Of a stretch of DNA of 64,000 nt, positions 2,844-11,628 are shown piece by piece. The DNA comes from Azoarcus taiwanensis. GTDB lineage: Bacteria; Pseudomonadota; Gammaproteobacteria; Burkholderiales; Rhodocyclaceae. The stretch covers positions 1 through 64,000 of the forward strand of contig NZ_WTVM01000004.1 in assembly GCF_012910885.1 (NCBI RefSeq). The letters run 5' to 3'. The first letter of the stretch is position 1; each line of letters begins with the position of its first letter. Below the pieces are notes generated by a model that did not search any database, had not been told where the DNA came from, and was given only the letters and a program-made list of their open reading frames with translations. The position numbers and the translations under genes were made by a program.

Positions 2844-4202
<1,359 letters not shown>

Positions 4203-4228
4203 ACCCGCAGCGATCGCGCAGAACGAAG

Positions 4229-4254
4229 AGCCGGGGTATCCCCGGCTTTTTTTT
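4229..4254 (+). terminator. rho-independent terminator of gdhA
   Basis: AGCCGGGG (4229-4236) and CCCCGGCT (4240-4247) form a perfect 8-bp stem with a three-base loop, followed by a T-rich tract to 4254. Confidence 0.9.
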
Positions 4255-4410
4255 CGTGTGTCGCCGGCGACCAACGTCTTTACACGCAACTGATCCGAAG
4301 CGCCCGCCCCGAGATGGCGGCGCTTCCAGGCATGACCGGCTTCCACCAGGCGTGCCCGGATTTGCCATTTGTCCCTGCGCTGACCTAAGCTCGGCCAGCG
4401 AGGTGTCGAA

Positions 4411-5406
4411 ATGAATGCGTTTCCAGAACTGTACGTCCCGCCGTGGACCACGAACCCCCAGGGGGATACCCGCCGCGTCGGTGTCGAGCTGGAGATGAAT
4501 GGCATGACGCTCGATCGGCTTGCCGAGCTCGCAGCCGACCATCTCGGTCTGGCAGTCGAGCGACGAGGGCGTCACGAGCGTGCGCTGGTGGGCGACGAAG
4601 CCGGAGAATGGCTGGTCGAGCTTGATTTCGATCTGCTCAAGCGCATGGGCCGGGAGGAGCGCGAGGCCGGTACGTTGGCCGGCGATATCGGCAATTCGGT
4701 AGAGGACCTGCTTGCGTGGTTCGCCGAGACTGTCGTGCCGCTTGAACTCGTCAGTCCTCCCTTGCCCTTCGGACGCCTTGAGGAGGTTCAGGCGCTCATC
4801 GCCCATTTGCGCAGAGCCGGCGCCAAAGGGACATCCGATCGGGTGCTCAACGCGTTCGGCATGCAGTTCAACCCCGAGATTCCAAGTGCCGACGTTGGCT
4901 TGCTGCTCGGCATTTTCAAGGCGTTTCTGTGTCTGTACGAGTGGCTTTATCAACGCGCCGACATCGACATGTCGCGCCGGGTCACGAGCTATATCGATCC
5001 GTTTCCGACCGAGTATGTGCGCAAGGTCGTGGATCCCGGTTACGCACCGGATCTCGCGACGTTGATCGACGACTATCTGGAAGACAATCCGACCCGCAAC
5101 CGCGCGCTGGACCTCTTGCCGCTGTTTGCGTTCCTTGACCAGGCCCGGGTTCGGGGTTCGGTGGACGACGTACTGATCAAGGCCCGCCCGACCTTTCACT
5201 ATCGATTGCCCGACTGCGACATCCACGTGCCGGGCTGGGGCTTGCATCTCGCGTGGAACGACTGGGTGGCGGTTGAGCGATTGGCCGCCGATCCGGCCAG
5301 GTTGCTGGCGTGCTGTGCTGCCTACTGTGAACACCTCGACAACCCTGTGCAGCGCTGGTTGGGCGATTGGGCGGCGGAGACCGACCGCAAATGGCTCGCC
5401 CGGTAA
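4411..5406 (+). CDS. amidoligase family protein (glutamine-synthetase-like COOH-NH2 ligase)
   Basis: This protein has 331 residues. The N terminus carries the family signature RRVGVELEMNGM, the glutamate-bearing strand of the putative amidoligase (GCS/GS-like) fold, followed by further acidic and basic positions (WLVELDFDLLK, VVPLELVSPPLP, NAFGMQFNPEI). Amidoligases of this group are predicted to join an amine to a carboxylate using ATP, making small-molecule or peptide amides; no substrate is established for this branch. The next gene overlaps by 16 bp and encodes a class I glutamine amidotransferase-like hydrolase. This recurring pairing implies that the two act on the same gamma-glutamyl-type bond. 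No membrane segment or signal is present, so it should act in the cytoplasm. Confidence 0.8.
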   Translation: MNAFPELYVPPWTTNPQGDTRRVGVELEMNGMTLDRLAELAADHLGLAVERRGRHERALVGDEAGEWLVELDFDLLKRMGREEREAGTLAGDIGNSVEDLLAWFAETVVPLELVSPPLPFGRLEEVQALIAHLRRAGAKGTSDRVLNAFGMQFNPEIPSADVGLLLGIFKAFLCLYEWLYQRADIDMSRRVTSYIDPFPTEYVRKVVDPGYAPDLATLIDDYLEDNPTRNRALDLLPLFAFLDQARVRGSVDDVLIKARPTFHYRLPDCDIHVPGWGLHLAWNDWVAVERLAADPARLLACCAAYCEHLDNPVQRWLGDWAAETDRKWLAR

Positions 5407-6080
5407 TCGCGGTCACCGGGCCGGAGCGTGGCGCATTCGGACCACGCGCGCTGGTCGCTGCGGCTATCCGCTGGTACGGCGGCAAGCCGGTCCATATTCG
5501 ACCGAGCGAGATAGACTGCCACCCCGCGTATGATGGCGTCGTCGTAACAGGCGGGCACGACATAGATCCGGTGCTCTACGCTGCGGAGCCCGAGGTGGAA
5601 CCGCGTCATGACAAGGCCCGCGATGCACTCGAGACCCGGATCATCGAAGAGGCGCTGTGGCGGCGCCTGCCTCTGCTCGGCATTTGCCGGGGCGCACAGT
5701 TGCTCAATGTCTGTCTCGGGGGCAGCCTCCATCAGGAGCTGCGCAGCCGCAGGCGCCACACGTCGAATCGGTGGACGATACTGCCACTGAAAACCCTCAG
5801 GATCCAAAGCGGAACGGTGCTCGCGGAGCTGATGGGCGGTGCGCGTTGCCGTATCAACAGCCTGCACAATCAGGCGATCGACACGGTTGGCGACGGGCTC
5901 AGAGTCAGCGGCGTCGATCTCGATGGCATCGTCCAGGCCATAGAAGACCCGTCACGCGGATTTCTGGTCGGGGTTCAGTGGCATCCGGAGTTCCTGATTG
6001 CCATGCCGCGCCACAGAGTGCTCTTTCGAGCGCTGGTGGAAGCCGCCACGGCGGCAGCAGGTTCGCGCACCGTTGCTTGA
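5391..6080 (+). CDS. class I glutamine amidotransferase-like protein (gamma-glutamyl-GABA hydrolase / peptidase C26 type)
   Basis: This protein has 229 residues from the ATG at 5391, which lies inside the end of the amidoligase gene. The nucleophile elbow GICRGAQLLNV supplies the catalytic Cys, and GVQWHPEF near the C terminus supplies the His-Glu pair. The oxyanion/GG segment VVVTGGHDIDPVLY is typical of PuuD-like gamma-glutamyl hydrolases. The frame remains open 24 bases upstream of this ATG, but the product family usually starts at MARPVIAVTGP, as chosen here. Close coupling to the amidoligase suggests that it either removes gamma-glutamyl groups from, or feeds ammonia to, the product of its partner. 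Confidence 0.85.
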   Translation: MARPVIAVTGPERGAFGPRALVAAAIRWYGGKPVHIRPSEIDCHPAYDGVVVTGGHDIDPVLYAAEPEVEPRHDKARDALETRIIEEALWRRLPLLGICRGAQLLNVCLGGSLHQELRSRRRHTSNRWTILPLKTLRIQSGTVLAELMGGARCRINSLHNQAIDTVGDGLRVSGVDLDGIVQAIEDPSRGFLVGVQWHPEFLIAMPRHRVLFRALVEAATAAAGSRTVA

Positions 6081-6245
6081 TCGGTCAGTCGGTCTCAGTG
6101 CTTTCTTCAGTGACGCGTAAACGATAAATCCATTCCGGACGCCTGCGCATCCACCACCGCTGAAACCCGGAATCGTGGTGCATCGCAGCAACCCTGTGAC
6201 ATACTTCGACTCATGATCCACGAGCGCGCATGTTCAGTCCGCCGC

Positions 6246-7475
6246 ATGCTGAAGCAATGGTCCAAAACCTTGCTACTGGCGTGTCTGTTGAGCTGGGTAT
6301 CGGTTGCCAGCCCGGCCGGTGCAAATGTCGAACTGCACGTCTTCTGGAGCGTGGACTGCCCGCACTGTGTGAGTCAGAAGCCCTTTCTTGCCGAGCTGGC
6401 CGAGCGCCACCCTGAAGTCGTCGTCTACGACTACGAGATCTCCCGGACCAGCGAGCATCATCGTCGTTTCATCGACATGGCGCTTGCGCACGGCATCGAG
6501 CCGGGTTCGGTGCCGACCTTGTTCGCTGCGGGGCGCGCCTGGATCGGAGACTCGCCCCAGATCCGGCGAGAAATCGAGATCGCGGTTGCGTGGGCGATTG
6601 GAGCGATGTCGGGCGGCGAGCAGGCCGATGTCCCGTCGCAGCCGTCGCGTGAGACGACCCGCCTGCCGGGGGGACTCGACCCGGTGCGCGATTCCATTGT
6701 GCTGACCACCTTGCTGATCGCCTTCGTCGATGGTTTCAACCCCTGTTCTTTGTGGGTGCTGACCTTGCTGCTCGGCCTGGTCATCCACTCGGGTTCGCGC
6801 GGCCGGATCGCATTGGTCGGCGTCACCTTTCTCACGACCACCTCGCTGATATACGGCGCCTTCATCGCCGGGGTGTTCAGCGTGTTGAGCTTCATTCTCT
6901 ACCTGAGCTGGGTACAGTGGCTGGTCGCAGCCTTTGCACTCACCTTCGGGCTGGTCAACGTCAAGGACTATTTCTGGTTTCGGCGCGGTCCATCCTTGAC
7001 CATCGCCGACAGCCACAAGCCGGGCATCTACAAGGGCATCCGCAGCCTGACCGATCGCCGGCTCGGAGGGCTCGGACTGGTCTTTGCGACTGTCGTCATG
7101 GCCTCCGGCATCGCTCTGGTCGAACTGCCGTGCACCGCCGGTTTCCCAGTGGTGTGGAGCGGCATCGTCGCGGACCGCGGTATTTCCGGGGCGGCATTCG
7201 TGCTGTTGCTGGCGCTTTATCTGCTGGTCTACTTGTCGATCGAACTCGTGGTCTTCCTGATCGCCTTGCTGACACTGCGCATGCAGCGTTTCGAGGAGCG
7301 GCATGGCCGCGCGCTGAAACTCGTCGGCGGCATGGTCATGGTCGCGCTGGCCGTCGTATTGGTCATGGCACCGGACCTGATGAACGACTTGTCCGGCTCG
7401 GTCGCGGTGTTCGGTATCGCACTGCTGGCGGCAGGTTTGATAATGGCGGTGGATCGGCTGCGATCTTCGCGTTGA
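6246..7475 (+). CDS. periplasmic thioredoxin domain fused to a DsbD/CcdA-like membrane domain
   Basis: This protein has 409 residues from the ATG at 6246, which places a good signal sequence at the N terminus (cut after PAGA). An in-frame ATG at 6213 is the alternative. A thioredoxin-like domain follows with the active-site pair Cys38-Pro-His-Cys41 (FWSVDCPHC) and a cis-Pro region (GSVPTLF). After a linker come at least six hydrophobic spans with two membrane cysteines, in GFNPCSLWVL and VELPCTAGFP, which resemble the paired cysteines of DsbD and CcdA. The likely role is passing reducing power across the inner membrane to the attached periplasmic thioredoxin. Usual DsbD has its thioredoxin domain at the C terminus; here it is at the N terminus. 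Confidence 0.8.
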   Translation: MLKQWSKTLLLACLLSWVSVASPAGANVELHVFWSVDCPHCVSQKPFLAELAERHPEVVVYDYEISRTSEHHRRFIDMALAHGIEPGSVPTLFAAGRAWIGDSPQIRREIEIAVAWAIGAMSGGEQADVPSQPSRETTRLPGGLDPVRDSIVLTTLLIAFVDGFNPCSLWVLTLLLGLVIHSGSRGRIALVGVTFLTTTSLIYGAFIAGVFSVLSFILYLSWVQWLVAAFALTFGLVNVKDYFWFRRGPSLTIADSHKPGIYKGIRSLTDRRLGGLGLVFATVVMASGIALVELPCTAGFPVVWSGIVADRGISGAAFVLLLALYLLVYLSIELVVFLIALLTLRMQRFEERHGRALKLVGGMVMVALAVVLVMAPDLMNDLSGSVAVFGIALLAAGLIMAVDRLRSSR

Positions 7476-7525
7476 CACGCCGCCAGGGCTGCTATGCTGA
7501 AATGCTAGCTTCTTCGGGACGAACC

Positions 7526-9343
7526 ATGACAGACGAACGCTCAAGCGCGATGCGCGCAAGTCTCTGCACCCTGGGTTTTGCGCTCCTGCTGGGTTGTTCC
7601 GCTCCGCTCGTCACGCGTACCGATGCGACGAGCGCCGCGATTCAGCCTGAGGCCGCTTCAGGCATCGAAGCGAGGACTGGTTGGGCGACGACGCGCTTTG
7701 CGGTCGCGGCGGCCAATCCGCTTGCGACCGAAGCCGGGTACCGGATTCTCCGGGCCGGTGGCTCGGCGGTGGATGCCGCGATCGCGGTGCAGATGGTGCT
7801 GACCCTGGTCGAACCGCAGTCGAGCGGCATTGGTGGCGGGGCCTTCCTGATGCATTTCGATCGCGGCGAAGTCACCGCCTGGGACGGGCGTGAAACCGCG
7901 CCGGCCGGTGTGACCGAATCCTTGTTCCTTGATACCGAGGGCCAACCCCTGCCCTTCATCGAGGCCGCCGCGAGCGGCCGCTCGGTCGGCGTGCCCGGCG
8001 TGTTGCGCATGCTCGAGGCGGTGCACCGCGAGCATGGACGCCTGCCGTGGCCGGATCTGTTCGCTCCGGCCATCGAGTTGGCCGAGAGCGGCTTCGCGGT
8101 GAGCAACCGACTGCACACCATGCTCGCGACCGACCCGGCCCTGCGTGACGATGCCGCTGCAGCCGCCTTCTACTACGATGCCGCGGGTGAGCCGTGGCCG
8201 GTCGGTCATGTGCTGACCAACCCCGCGCTGGCCGCGATTCTGCGTGACATCGCAATCAACGGAGCCGATGCGCTCCACAGTGGCCCGATCGCACGCGACA
8301 TCGTCGCCCGGGTGGCAGCGCACCCTCGAGGCGCCGGCAGCCTCTCGGAGCAGGATCTCGCGGACTACCGGCCGCTGCGCCGTGATCCGCTGTGCACCGA
8401 CTGGCGTCGCTATCGGGTTTGTGGTTTTCCACCGCCTTCGTCCGGGCATCTGGCGATGATGCAGATCGTCGGCATTCTCGACAACCTGCCACCGCAAACT
8501 GATGTGCTGGCAGGCGATCTGCCGTCTGTCACCTGGCTGCACGGCTTCCTCGAAGCGGCGCGGCTGGCTTTTGCCGACCGGGCGCTGTACGTGGCCGACC
8601 CCGATTTCGTCGCGGCGCCCGGTAGTGACTGGCGCACCCTGCTGGCGCCGGCCTATTTGCGCGACCGGGCCGGTTTGATCGGCGAGCAGAGCATGGGTCG
8701 CGCCGAAGCCGGCAACCCGGCGCCTGAAACCGCCAGATTCGCGCCCCAGCACGAACAGACGGCCTACGGCACTAGCCACATCAGCATCGTCGACGCCTTC
8801 GGCAATGGCTTGGCGATGACCACCACGATCGAATCCGCCTTCGGTTCTCGCATCCTGGCCGATGGTGGCACGGGCTTGCCGGGTGGCTATCTGCTCAACA
8901 ACGAACTCACCGACTTCTCCTTCCGACCGCGCGACGAAGCCGGCATGCCGATCGCCAATCGGGTGGAGCCCGGAAAGCGTCCGCGCTCGAGCATGAGCCC
9001 GACTCTGGTGTTCGATGCCACGAGCGGCGAACTGCTTGCCAGCCTCGGCTCGCCGGGGGGCGCCGCAATCATCCATTACACCGCACGTGCGTTGTGGGCG
9101 CTGTTCGACTGGGGCCTGGACGCCCAGCGCGCGCTCGACCTGCCGCACGTGATCACGCTTGGCGGTCCGGTCTTCATGGAACAGGGCCGCTGGCCGGAAG
9201 CCACCCTCGAAGCTCTGCGCGCCCGTGGCCACGAGGTCAGCGAGCGCGAGCTCACCAGCGGTTTGCAGGCGATCCAGCGCACGGCTGAAGGCTGGTTCGG
9301 CGGCGCCGATCCGCGCCGCGAGGGCGTGGTGATGGGGGAGTGA
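7526..9343 (+). CDS. ggt: gamma-glutamyltransferase (glutathione hydrolase), predicted lipoprotein
   Basis: This protein has about 605 residues. The start at 7526 has a GGGA-like ribosome binding site; ATG 7502 and ATG 7550 are alternatives. The N terminus has a lipobox (ALLLGC), so the precursor is probably anchored as a lipoprotein. The family signatures are present: SAVDAAIAVQMVLTLVEPQSSGIGGG in the large subunit and the autocleavage/nucleophile threonine in YGTSHISIVDAFGN. The small-subunit loop (PGGYLLNNELTDFSF) and the oxyanion segment RPRSSMSPTLVF follow. The enzyme splits gamma-glutamyl bonds of glutathione and related peptides in the periplasm. It follows the thioredoxin/DsbD-like gene closely, which fits thiol handling in the periplasm. 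Confidence 0.92.
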   Translation: MTDERSSAMRASLCTLGFALLLGCSAPLVTRTDATSAAIQPEAASGIEARTGWATTRFAVAAANPLATEAGYRILRAGGSAVDAAIAVQMVLTLVEPQSSGIGGGAFLMHFDRGEVTAWDGRETAPAGVTESLFLDTEGQPLPFIEAAASGRSVGVPGVLRMLEAVHREHGRLPWPDLFAPAIELAESGFAVSNRLHTMLATDPALRDDAAAAAFYYDAAGEPWPVGHVLTNPALAAILRDIAINGADALHSGPIARDIVARVAAHPRGAGSLSEQDLADYRPLRRDPLCTDWRRYRVCGFPPPSSGHLAMMQIVGILDNLPPQTDVLAGDLPSVTWLHGFLEAARLAFADRALYVADPDFVAAPGSDWRTLLAPAYLRDRAGLIGEQSMGRAEAGNPAPETARFAPQHEQTAYGTSHISIVDAFGNGLAMTTTIESAFGSRILADGGTGLPGGYLLNNELTDFSFRPRDEAGMPIANRVEPGKRPRSSMSPTLVFDATSGELLASLGSPGGAAIIHYTARALWALFDWGLDAQRALDLPHVITLGGPVFMEQGRWPEATLEALRARGHEVSERELTSGLQAIQRTAEGWFGGADPRREGVVMGE

Positions 9344-9407: not shown

Positions 9408-9674
9408 ATGGCCAGAAACGACTACAAGCGTAACGAAAGGCTCTACCAGATCGCACTGCGCCGCGACTGGACCTACTCGCTGAAGCTCGCGCTGATCGGC
9501 TTCGTCGTGGGGGTGCTGGCGATCCCCGCGCTGCTGGCCGGCGACCCGGACCTCCATCCGCTGAGCCGCACGGTCTCCTTCGTTGCCTGGGTGTTCAGTC
9601 TTGGTTTCGGCGGCATCGCGGCCTATCGTTTCTACGTTCAGCGAAGCAAAAAAAAGACGGAGGACCACCCGTGA
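9408..9674 (+). CDS. small two-span membrane protein of unknown function
   Basis: This protein has 88 residues. The N terminus is positively charged (MARNDYKRNERLYQIALRRDW) and is followed by two hydrophobic spans, LALIGFVVGVLAIPALLAG and VSFVAWVFSLGFGGIAAY. The tail is lysine-rich (QRSKKKTEDHP). The last codons overlap the start of pncA by 4 bp, so the two are translationally coupled. I do not recognise a family. Confidence 0.6.
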   Translation: MARNDYKRNERLYQIALRRDWTYSLKLALIGFVVGVLAIPALLAGDPDLHPLSRTVSFVAWVFSLGFGGIAAYRFYVQRSKKKTEDHP

Positions 9675-10270
9675 CCAACGTTTTCCCCTCACGACCGGGC
9701 GTCGGTGATGCGCTGATAATCGTCGATGTGCAGAACGATTTCCTGCCGGGCGGTGCTCTTGCGGTGCCAGAGGGTGATCGGGTGGTCGCGCCGCTGATCC
9801 AGCTCGCCGCCAGGTTTGCCGAGCTGGGTTTGCCGGTGTTCGCAACTCGTGACTGGCATCCGCAAGATCACTGCTCCTTCGCTGCGCAGGGCGGGCCGTG
9901 GCCTCCACACTGCGTCGCAGGCACCGAGGGCGCCGCATTCGCGCCGGGTCTGCGGTTGCCCGAAACGGCGGTCGTTGTCTCCAGGGCGACTGAAGCCGCC
10001 AGTGACGCCTATTCCGGTTTTCAGGGCACGACGCTTGGCGTCCAGCTCGCGCAACTTGGGGTGAAGCGAGTCTTCGTTGGAGGTCTGGCGACCGACTACT
10101 GCGTGCTCAATACCGTGAGCGACGCGCTCGCCGGGGGCTTGGAGGTGGTGTTGCTGGCAGACGCGATTCGTGCGGTGGACGTGAATCCCGGCGACGGCGA
10201 TCGTGCGCTGGCTGCCATGCTCGCCGCCGGTGCGCTCACCGGCAGTGCGACGCAGGCGGCCGCTGCATGA
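9671..10270 (+). CDS. pncA: nicotinamidase (isochorismatase-like hydrolase)
   Basis: This protein has 199 residues. It should hydrolyse nicotinamide to nicotinate for NAD salvage. The catalytic Asp19 (IVDVQNDFLPGG), the metal-binding set DWHP (Asp61, His63) with His80, the cis-peptide loop and Cys144 (GGLATDYCV) are all visible. The position that normally holds the catalytic Lys is Arg105 (VVSRATEAASDAYSGF), which is unusual. It overlaps the next gene, pncB, by 4 bp, so both steps from nicotinamide to nicotinate mononucleotide are made from one transcript. Confidence 0.9.
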   Translation: MTNVFPSRPGVGDALIIVDVQNDFLPGGALAVPEGDRVVAPLIQLAARFAELGLPVFATRDWHPQDHCSFAAQGGPWPPHCVAGTEGAAFAPGLRLPETAVVVSRATEAASDAYSGFQGTTLGVQLAQLGVKRVFVGGLATDYCVLNTVSDALAGGLEVVLLADAIRAVDVNPGDGDRALAAMLAAGALTGSATQAAAA

Positions 10271-11628
10271 GCCAACAAGAGATGCGGCCGAACGAGGGGC
10301 GAAGTCCGCTTCTCACCGATCTCTACCAGCTCACGATGATGCAGGCCTACTTCGACGGCCGCATGTTCGAGCCTGCGGTGTTCGAGTTCTTCGTGCGCAA
10401 GCTGCCGGAGGGGCGCAACTTCCTGATTGCGGCCGGACTCGAGCAGGTGCTCGATTTTCTGGAAGGCCTGCGTTTCGCGCCTGAGGAACTCGACTGGCTG
10501 TCCGGCACGGGTCGGTTCAGCCCTGCCTTCATCGAGTGGCTGGCGAAGCTGCGTTTTACCGGCGAAGTCGATGCGATGCCCGAGGGCACAGTCTTTTTCC
10601 CCGATGAGCCCATCCTGCGTGTTGTCGCCCCGCTGCCGCTGGCACAACTGGTCGAATCGCGCATCATCAACCTGCTGCAGTTCCAGACACTGGTCGCGTC
10701 CAAGGCGGTGCGCAGCGTGCTCGCAGCCGAGGGGCGGTTGTTGGTGGACTTTGGCATGCGGCGCTCGCACGGGGCCGAAGCCGGGCTGCTGTCTGCTCGT
10801 GCAAGCTATCTGGCCGGCTTCGCCGGTAGCGCTACGGTGCTCGCCGGCATGCGTTGGGGGGTGCCGCTCTACGGCACCATGGCGCATTCCTTCATCCAGG
10901 CTCATGACAACGAAGTCGTGGCCTTCGAGCATTTCGCGCGTTCGCAGCCGCAGGCCAACACGATGCTCATCGACACCTACGACACGGAGGCTGCCGCCGA
11001 GAAGCTTGTCGGCCTGGCGCACAGGCTGGCGAAAGAGGGCATCGAGATCCAGGCGGTGCGACTGGACAGCGGCGATCTCGGCGAGCATGCACGCAAGGTC
11101 CGTGCGATCCTCGACGCCGGCGGTCTGCAGCGCATGCGCATCTTCGCCAGCGGTAACCTGGACGAGTACCGGTTGCGCGAACTGGTTGCGGCCGGCGCGC
11201 CGATCGACGGTTTCGGCGTCGGCACCCGCATGAACACCTCGGCCGATCATCCCTATTTCGACTGCGCCTACAAGCTTCAGGAATATGCGGGTGAGGCCCG
11301 CCGCAAGCGCTCCGAAGGCAAGGCCACCTGGCCGGGCCGCAAGCAGGTCTGGCGACACTACGATGACGTGGGCAGGATCGTCGGCGACACCCTGACAACG
11401 CTGGACGACGACGGCATCGGCACCGCCTTGCTCGAGCCGGTCATGCGCGATGGCCGTCGTCTTGCGCCATCGCCCGCGCTCGACGCGGTTCGCGAGCGGG
11501 TCGCCGCTCAGCTCGACACGCTTCCAGAGCCGCTGCGACGGCTCGAGCCCGCGGCGGCCAGCGTGCCGGTAACCGTCTCCCCCGTGCTGCAAGCACTGGC
11601 CGAAGCGGTCGACAGGCATCCTCACTGA
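10267..11628 (+). CDS. pncB: nicotinate phosphoribosyltransferase
   Basis: This protein has 453 residues and carries family hallmarks: an N-terminal LLTDLYQLTMMQAYF, the active-site histidine region GTMAHSFIQAHDNE, and the substrate/phosphate loops DTYDTEAAAEK, VRLDSGDLGEHARKVR and FGVGTRMNTSADHPYFDCAYKL. The enzyme converts nicotinate and PRPP to nicotinate mononucleotide with ATP hydrolysis (Preiss-Handler pathway). It is translated in overlap with pncA and is followed after six bases by an acetyltransferase gene. Confidence 0.95.
   Translation: MSQQEMRPNEGRSPLLTDLYQLTMMQAYFDGRMFEPAVFEFFVRKLPEGRNFLIAAGLEQVLDFLEGLRFAPEELDWLSGTGRFSPAFIEWLAKLRFTGEVDAMPEGTVFFPDEPILRVVAPLPLAQLVESRIINLLQFQTLVASKAVRSVLAAEGRLLVDFGMRRSHGAEAGLLSARASYLAGFAGSATVLAGMRWGVPLYGTMAHSFIQAHDNEVVAFEHFARSQPQANTMLIDTYDTEAAAEKLVGLAHRLAKEGIEIQAVRLDSGDLGEHARKVRAILDAGGLQRMRIFASGNLDEYRLRELVAAGAPIDGFGVGTRMNTSADHPYFDCAYKLQEYAGEARRKRSEGKATWPGRKQVWRHYDDVGRIVGDTLTTLDDDGIGTALLEPVMRDGRRLAPSPALDAVRERVAAQLDTLPEPLRRLEPAAASVPVTVSPVLQALAEAVDRHPH

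Follow-up and report, generated by a model that had tools for sequence, protein, structure and literature searches.

Which product is made by two overlapping genes in the genome of Azoarcus taiwanensis, and do the glutamyl-metabolising genes on either side of them take part? The window, by which we mean the whole 64,000-nucleotide stretch of DNA analysed here, carries a ligase gene followed by a hydrolase gene, with gdhA upstream and a gamma-glutamyltransferase (GGT) gene downstream (Table 1). An earlier note had read the two overlapping genes as a glutamine-synthetase-fold amidoligase and a PuuD-like hydrolase of gamma-glutamyl chemistry, and had seen a meaningful group in the three glutamyl enzymes. 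We followed up both proposals by profile, structure and neighbourhood comparison.

Table 1 Positions of the ligase-hydrolase pair and its neighbours in the window.
Feature	Position	Strand	Remark
gdhA, NADP-specific glutamate dehydrogenase	2859-4202	+	Neighbour, judged outside the unit
Intrinsic terminator in the gap between gdhA and the pair	4225-4251 (stem)	+	Fold z -4.99 for 4205-4260
Ligase, Amidoligase_2 (PF12224)	4411-5406	+	331 aa; predicted glutamine-synthetase fold
Peptidase C26 / PuuD-like gamma-glutamyl hydrolase	5391-6080	+	229 aa; class I GATase fold by family
420-aa protein between the pair and GGT	6213-7475	+	No Pfam or NCBIfam match at E 0.01
Gamma-glutamyltransferase (GGT)	7526-9343 (frame 7457-9343; start 7526 or 7550)	+	Neighbour, judged outside the unit

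Membership of the ligase in Amidoligase_2 was assigned by profile, the cut-off of 22 bits being exceeded across nearly the whole domain (204.6 bits, E = 3e-60; residues 20-286 on profile positions 2-244 of 245). It is the single gene of this family in the host genome. Forty columns were invariant among 44 aligned sequences, and the invariant residues include E26, E28, E70, D72, E112, N154, E156, R189, R229, R231, H263 and R265. An AlphaFold2 model built from 44 sequences (mean pLDDT 87.4, pTM 0.86) was compared by VIA-align 2 with 997 Foldseek candidates, and glutamine synthetases were matched at Z up to 12.2 (3.4-3.8 Å over 212-220 residues), above the Z of 7-8 that the tool quotes as the typical best for models with no clear match. 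Each of the 50 matches listed bore the title of a glutamine synthetase, of a gamma-glutamyl-amide relative of these enzymes or of glutamate-cysteine ligase, among them 1-naphthylamine glutamine synthetase (Z 11.6), GmaS (Z 11.2) and the plant glutamate-cysteine ligase (Z 10.8). Foldseek alone returned nothing under E 0.001 for the model, its best match being the plant glutamate-cysteine ligase at E = 0.04, and phmmer with the ligase sequence found no relative among solved structures (three matches at E 0.9-1.6, attributed to chance). The ligase is thus predicted to adopt the glutamine-synthetase fold, as the earlier note had supposed, and its conserved acidic and basic residues are defined by the alignment rather than by a ligand-bound structure.

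The hydrolase, read from the ATG at 5391 rather than from the TTG at 5367 of the open reading frame list, matched Peptidase_C26 (PF07722) at 166 bits (165.7; cut-off 20.5, E = 1.3e-48) and, more weakly, GATase (PF00117) at 50.6 bits. The family matches of both window proteins are far beyond chance. The nearest solved relatives of the hydrolase by sequence were 7d4r (2.8e-28), Lin1909 (8.3e-26) and PuuD (2.7e-23), with GMP synthase only at 1.1e-4. The triad residues Cys99, His198 and Glu200 are in place and do not vary among the 45 aligned sequences, that of the window included; the triad is kept against a solved relative, and the PuuD-like hydrolase had indeed been described as catalytically intact, a loss of catalytic residues having been named as grounds for giving up the proposal. 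The host genome holds four further C26-family matches, which are far weaker (next best 44.1 bits against 165.7).

This combination of enzymes has precedents. Iyer and colleagues reportedly described in 2009 that Amidoligase_2 ligases are accompanied by either a thiol hydrolase or a protein of AIG2 type. The Pfam text for PF12224 reportedly says the same and assigns the C26-type partner to proteobacteria and the AIG2-type partner to firmicutes. The ligase-hydrolase pairing is known in outline, and the window pair belongs to a recognised family and neighbourhood type: it shares the profile match, the glutamine-synthetase fold and the adjacent thiol hydrolase or AIG2-type cyclotransferase, with C26 beside the ligase in the window and C26 or the cyclotransferase GGACT beside it in 51 and 7 of 57 related loci, respectively. 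In contrast to that assignment, AIG2-type (GGACT) genes are also found here among loci that are mostly proteobacterial, whether or not C26 is present. A clade of GGTs forms a further partner. Partner exchange, co-divergence of the pair, its apparent mobility and the probable bystander role of gdhA and GGT are what the present analysis adds.

Phage amidoligase modules in UFV-P2 and LUZ24-like phages (PMC3890496), U17 (PMC11945000) and Phage-ZRK32 (PMC10945688) also have an amidoligase in the vicinity of a glutamine amidotransferase, a gamma-glutamyl cyclotransferase or both. They differ in their partners: the GATase of UFV-P2 is of class II, and ATP-grasp or glutathione-synthase proteins occur as well. 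No match to the window ligase was found in phage records by tblastn at E 0.01, and a phage origin of this gene was dropped on that account. The literature searched, including PMC11318856, PMC6478659 and PMC7824862, gave no characterised product for Amidoligase_2 ligases.

Further parallels come from glutamine synthetase relatives. GmaS and 1-naphthylamine glutamine synthetase resemble the ligase in fold and in likely chemistry but share only 11-14% identity with it in the structural alignments and belong to another sequence family. The PuuA-PuuD system likewise has a glutamine-synthetase-fold ligase and a C26 hydrolase as its two ends, and a similar catabolic route could be drawn here, in which the ligase would protect an amine, other enzymes would oxidise it and C26 would remove the glutamate. 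Such a route is consistent with the types of both end enzymes and with the plasmid locus L142, where an aldehyde dehydrogenase gene lies directly upstream of the pair and an amino-acid ABC binding protein gene before that. This aldehyde dehydrogenase, when searched by tblastn in 83 loci, was adjacent in L142 only, with five others kilobases away, and in a survey of 104 neighbouring ORFs the 25 commonest families included no oxidase. Ten window proteins were scanned with no oxidase or aldehyde dehydrogenase found, so that the middle steps are missing from the window unit. The hydrolase also scored 88.6 bits against the cut-off of 266 for the PuuD equivalog NF008471, and the ligase is an Amidoligase_2 protein; Puu-like amine catabolism is, on balance, quite unlikely.

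Sequence-based classification already recognises this pair, which many aquatic bacteria share. The ligase was found in 3 of 61 kin genomes and in 18 of 369 genomes of a class sample; a Pfam profile search of a phylum sample gave 24 of 398, the host being included in each count. A scan of named genomes yielded 57 loci, by record title mostly from Gammaproteobacteria with a few from Alpha- and Betaproteobacteria, and one record each under the titles Deltaproteobacteria and Halothece. Named carriers of the pair include Halopseudomonas, Halomonas, Marinimicrobium and Thiocapsa, hosts in which targeted metabolomics could find the product. Relatives of the ligase were also present in 11 plasmid records, of which the six opened are alphaproteobacterial.

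C26 adjoined the ligase in 51 of the 57 named loci (tblastn with window and relative queries), the copy in L019 being cut by a contig end. The same arrangement was found in 17 of 18 class-sample loci, the exception (L098) being a second copy in genome G307, and in 19 of 21 full-length phylum-sample loci besides the window, all but L167 and L168; weak fragments in G581 and G641 are uncounted, and two of the 21 (G132, G424) are shared with the class sample. In the plasmid regions opened, C26 was present in L142, L145 and L147 and absent from L143, L144 and L146. Neither a C26 neighbour nor GGACT was found in L098, L143, L144, L146, L167 or L168. The six named loci lacking C26 are L009, L022, L029, L030, L043 and L061. 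The ligase is broken in L022 and L061, both from Marinobacter (by a stop and into two pieces, respectively), with no C26 and no other partner seen, as if the pair decays together; the ligase of L043 is likewise in two pieces.

In the window the overlap reported earlier is confirmed, at 16 nt; the two genes overlap in 60 of the 70 rows measured (of 71 in all, the window and the duplicate L080 included). Overlaps of 16 or 4 nt are found in many loci, the 16-nt form in the window and 16 other rows. In seven rows from Halomonas the figure is 145 nt, and there the start may have been placed too far upstream. The pairwise identities for the ligase and for C26 correlated at r = 0.957 across 69 loci, those with no C26, L019 and L080 being omitted. 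None of 1000 permutations reached this value, the best being 0.266. A lack of co-conservation had been named as a finding that would speak against the pair; the adjacency in 51 of 57 loci and this correlation show the opposite, and the ligase and C26 are a real and well conserved unit.

The unit also appears, from its sequence relationships, to move between lineages together. The pair of the same-genus locus L005 is 75-76% (ligase) and 78-79% (C26) identical to Porticoccus-type loci and only 65% and 70% identical to the window pair. The ligase tree, from which the split ligases of L043 and L061 as well as the duplicate L080 were omitted, agrees in placing L005 closer to the Porticoccus-type loci than to the window. 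Both observations suggest joint travel of the two genes.

Two further enzymes occur beside the ligase. In 7 of 57 named loci its neighbour is GGACT, a gamma-glutamyl cyclotransferase, verified by Pfam in every case; four of the six loci that lack C26 (L009, L029, L030, L043) are among these. GGT lay directly upstream of the pair in 13 of 57, mostly within one Pseudomonas branch (11 of the 13); neither GGT nor GGACT was found in the 18 class-sample loci. The N-termini of these cluster GGTs mostly look, by eye, like lipoprotein signals, so the enzyme would act outside the cytoplasm. Although GGT and GGACT occurred together in 0 of 57 loci, this was not significant (P = 0.14), and mutual exclusion was dropped.

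Three unrelated folds that cleave gamma-glutamyl bonds are thus found beside one ligase, which argues for a gamma-glutamyl amide as its product, GGT contributing through one clade only, to which the GGT of the window does not belong. The exchange of C26 for GGACT and the addition of the GGT clade narrow the question of the product to such an amide, and the gamma-glutamyl chemistry claimed for the pair is likely. We therefore favour, with moderate confidence, a horizontally mobile, translationally coupled cassette whose two enzymes would form and cleave a gamma-glutamyl amide in the cytoplasm. The ligase would spend ATP on activating the gamma-carboxyl group of glutamate (or of a glutamyl compound) and would then join the activated glutamyl group to an amine-bearing small molecule. 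C26 would cut this gamma-glutamyl bond, or the one in a derivative formed later, by means of its Cys-His-Glu triad, and so return glutamate. In some lineages GGACT replaces or accompanies C26, and in others a GGT, probably exported, is added. The analysis establishes the families, the predicted fold, the intact residues, the gene overlap, the co-inheritance and the alternative partners; from these we infer the coupling, the direction of the reaction, glutamate as the donor, an amine as the acceptor and the action of the hydrolase on the product of the ligase.

The same partners bear on two other readings. The tight gene overlaps of 16 or 4 nt and the co-divergence of the two proteins suggest a complex, and this lends some probability to a two-protein glutamine amidotransferase, in which C26 would feed ammonia from glutamine to the ligase and the ligase would amidate a carboxylate. 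MurT-GatD is such an enzyme, built of other folds. The hydrolase does match GATase, but its score against the C26 model is far higher (166 against 50.6 bits), PuuD is among its nearest solved relatives, and 4 of 57 loci have GGACT and no C26 beside the ligase. Release of ammonia from glutamine is conceivable for each of the three kinds of partner, which leaves a glutamine-fed amide synthase as an unlikely reading that still deserves some weight. A stand-in for glutathione synthesis, with gamma-glutamylcysteine as the ligase product, would accord with the structural match to the plant glutamate-cysteine ligase and with GGT and GGACT as gamma-glutamyl-cycle enzymes. It is highly improbable given the ordinary GshA genes in the genomes of the host, L016 and L022: the host has a full GshA (PF08886, 1e-198, a profile searched in the host genome only), and Glu_cys_ligase was found in the L016 and L022 genomes but not in the other four of six searched, the host included.

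With the gamma-glutamyl amide cassette as the preferred reading, the neighbours in the window can be considered. Both gdhA and GGT are present on the sides where the earlier note had placed them, but the terminator separates gdhA from the pair and the 420-aa protein gene separates the pair from GGT. None of 200 shuffles of the 56-nt terminator sequence folded as stably; the terminator consensus scan gave 6 sites in 7.2 kb against 5.4 in shuffles, and it is the strength of this one site that counts. No gdhA was found by tblastn in any of 77 related loci, a set in which L080 duplicates L005 and some loci are short. On these two grounds gdhA was rejected as part of the unit. The 420-aa protein was rejected because tblastn found no copy of it in any related ligase locus; it was also absent beside GGT in the loci of 29 relatives (L101-L129, mostly with about 1.5 kb of flank). 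By eye, a CPHC motif of thioredoxin type can be made out close to the N-terminus of this protein, and the rest of the chain is hydrophobic and probably spans the membrane.

The GGT of the window has a lipoprotein-like N-terminus, again by eye, and is 61% and 57% identical to the GGTs of G018 and G019, two genomes with no ligase. In a tree of the best GGT per locus (43 rows), it forms a supported trio with these two (starred sets of 3 and 21 rows) and thus falls among the ordinary GGTs of the bacterial family. The 13 cluster GGTs group with that of the same-genus locus L121 in a separate clade (support 100/99, 14 rows). GGT in the window was therefore also rejected from the unit, and the locus differs in this respect from the GGT-ligase-C26 clusters of Pseudomonas and Halopseudomonas. 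Taken together, the terminator, the absence of gdhA from all 77 loci and the different GGT clade do not bear out the three glutamyl enzymes as a meaningful group; the arrangement is mostly coincidence, and gdhA and GGT in the window are probably bystanders. The host has a second GGT gene on another contig (G000:C122:35067-36797, L130), with one internal TGA; it shares 66% identity with the L044 cluster GGT, which marks it as one of the cluster kind. Further downstream in the window, at 9671-11628 on the + strand, an isochorismatase-family (nicotinamidase-like) gene is immediately followed by a nicotinate phosphoribosyltransferase gene, an ordinary NAD-salvage pair.

Neighbours in related loci were surveyed for a physiological role. 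No Pfam family occurred in more than three of 104 neighbouring ORFs, which were picked by eye from 189 (33 of the 57 loci; the 25 commonest of 128 families listed) after calling with a home-made caller. The survey set apart the ligase, C26, BCCT, GGT, TetR and GGACT clusters, and skipped very long, short and likely shadow frames as well as most ORFs scanned earlier. A Peptidase_Mx gene was seen in 4 loci, and neighbours confined to Halomonas were an aldo/keto reductase (7 loci) and an OsmC-type gene (6 loci). BCCT transporters, a large and common family, lay within the flanks of 20 of 57 loci, but 15 of the 20 belong to one Pseudomonas/Halopseudomonas branch and the copies in L013 and L042 are about 6 kb past C26. 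BCCT was accordingly rejected as a firm partner and kept as a hint.

There are other such hints. A mechanosensitive or ion channel gene is near the pair in a few loci, and marine or halophilic genera appear in many record titles of ligase carriers, the titles being the only source used. Ectoine synthase exceeded its cut-off in 6 of the 18 class-sample genomes that carry the ligase and in 47 of the 351 that do not (Fisher P = 0.031), a weak association that falls to P = 0.076 when the window genome is left out and whose statistics ignore relatedness. In L087 (2981-9032, G231:C33), an EctC-type ectoine synthase and a glutamine cyclotransferase are clustered with ligase and C26. The BCCT, channel, ectoine, habitat-title and L087 hints are those from which we would draw, as a long shot, a hitherto undescribed gamma-glutamyl amide cycle that would help bacteria of saline waters to adapt to osmotic or ionic conditions. 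The ligase might then, equally speculatively, build a gamma-glutamyl solute that C26, GGACT or an exported GGT dismantles.

L087 also carries a glutamate synthase domain protein and a formate/nitrite transporter by the pair, and a formate/nitrite transporter lies beside the pair in L145 as well. In Wenzhouxiangella-type loci a GlnE-like adenylyltransferase gene closely follows C26, at L046:9745-12288 (by Pfam) and L049:9658-12291, the assignment in L049 and in L052 being by clustering only.
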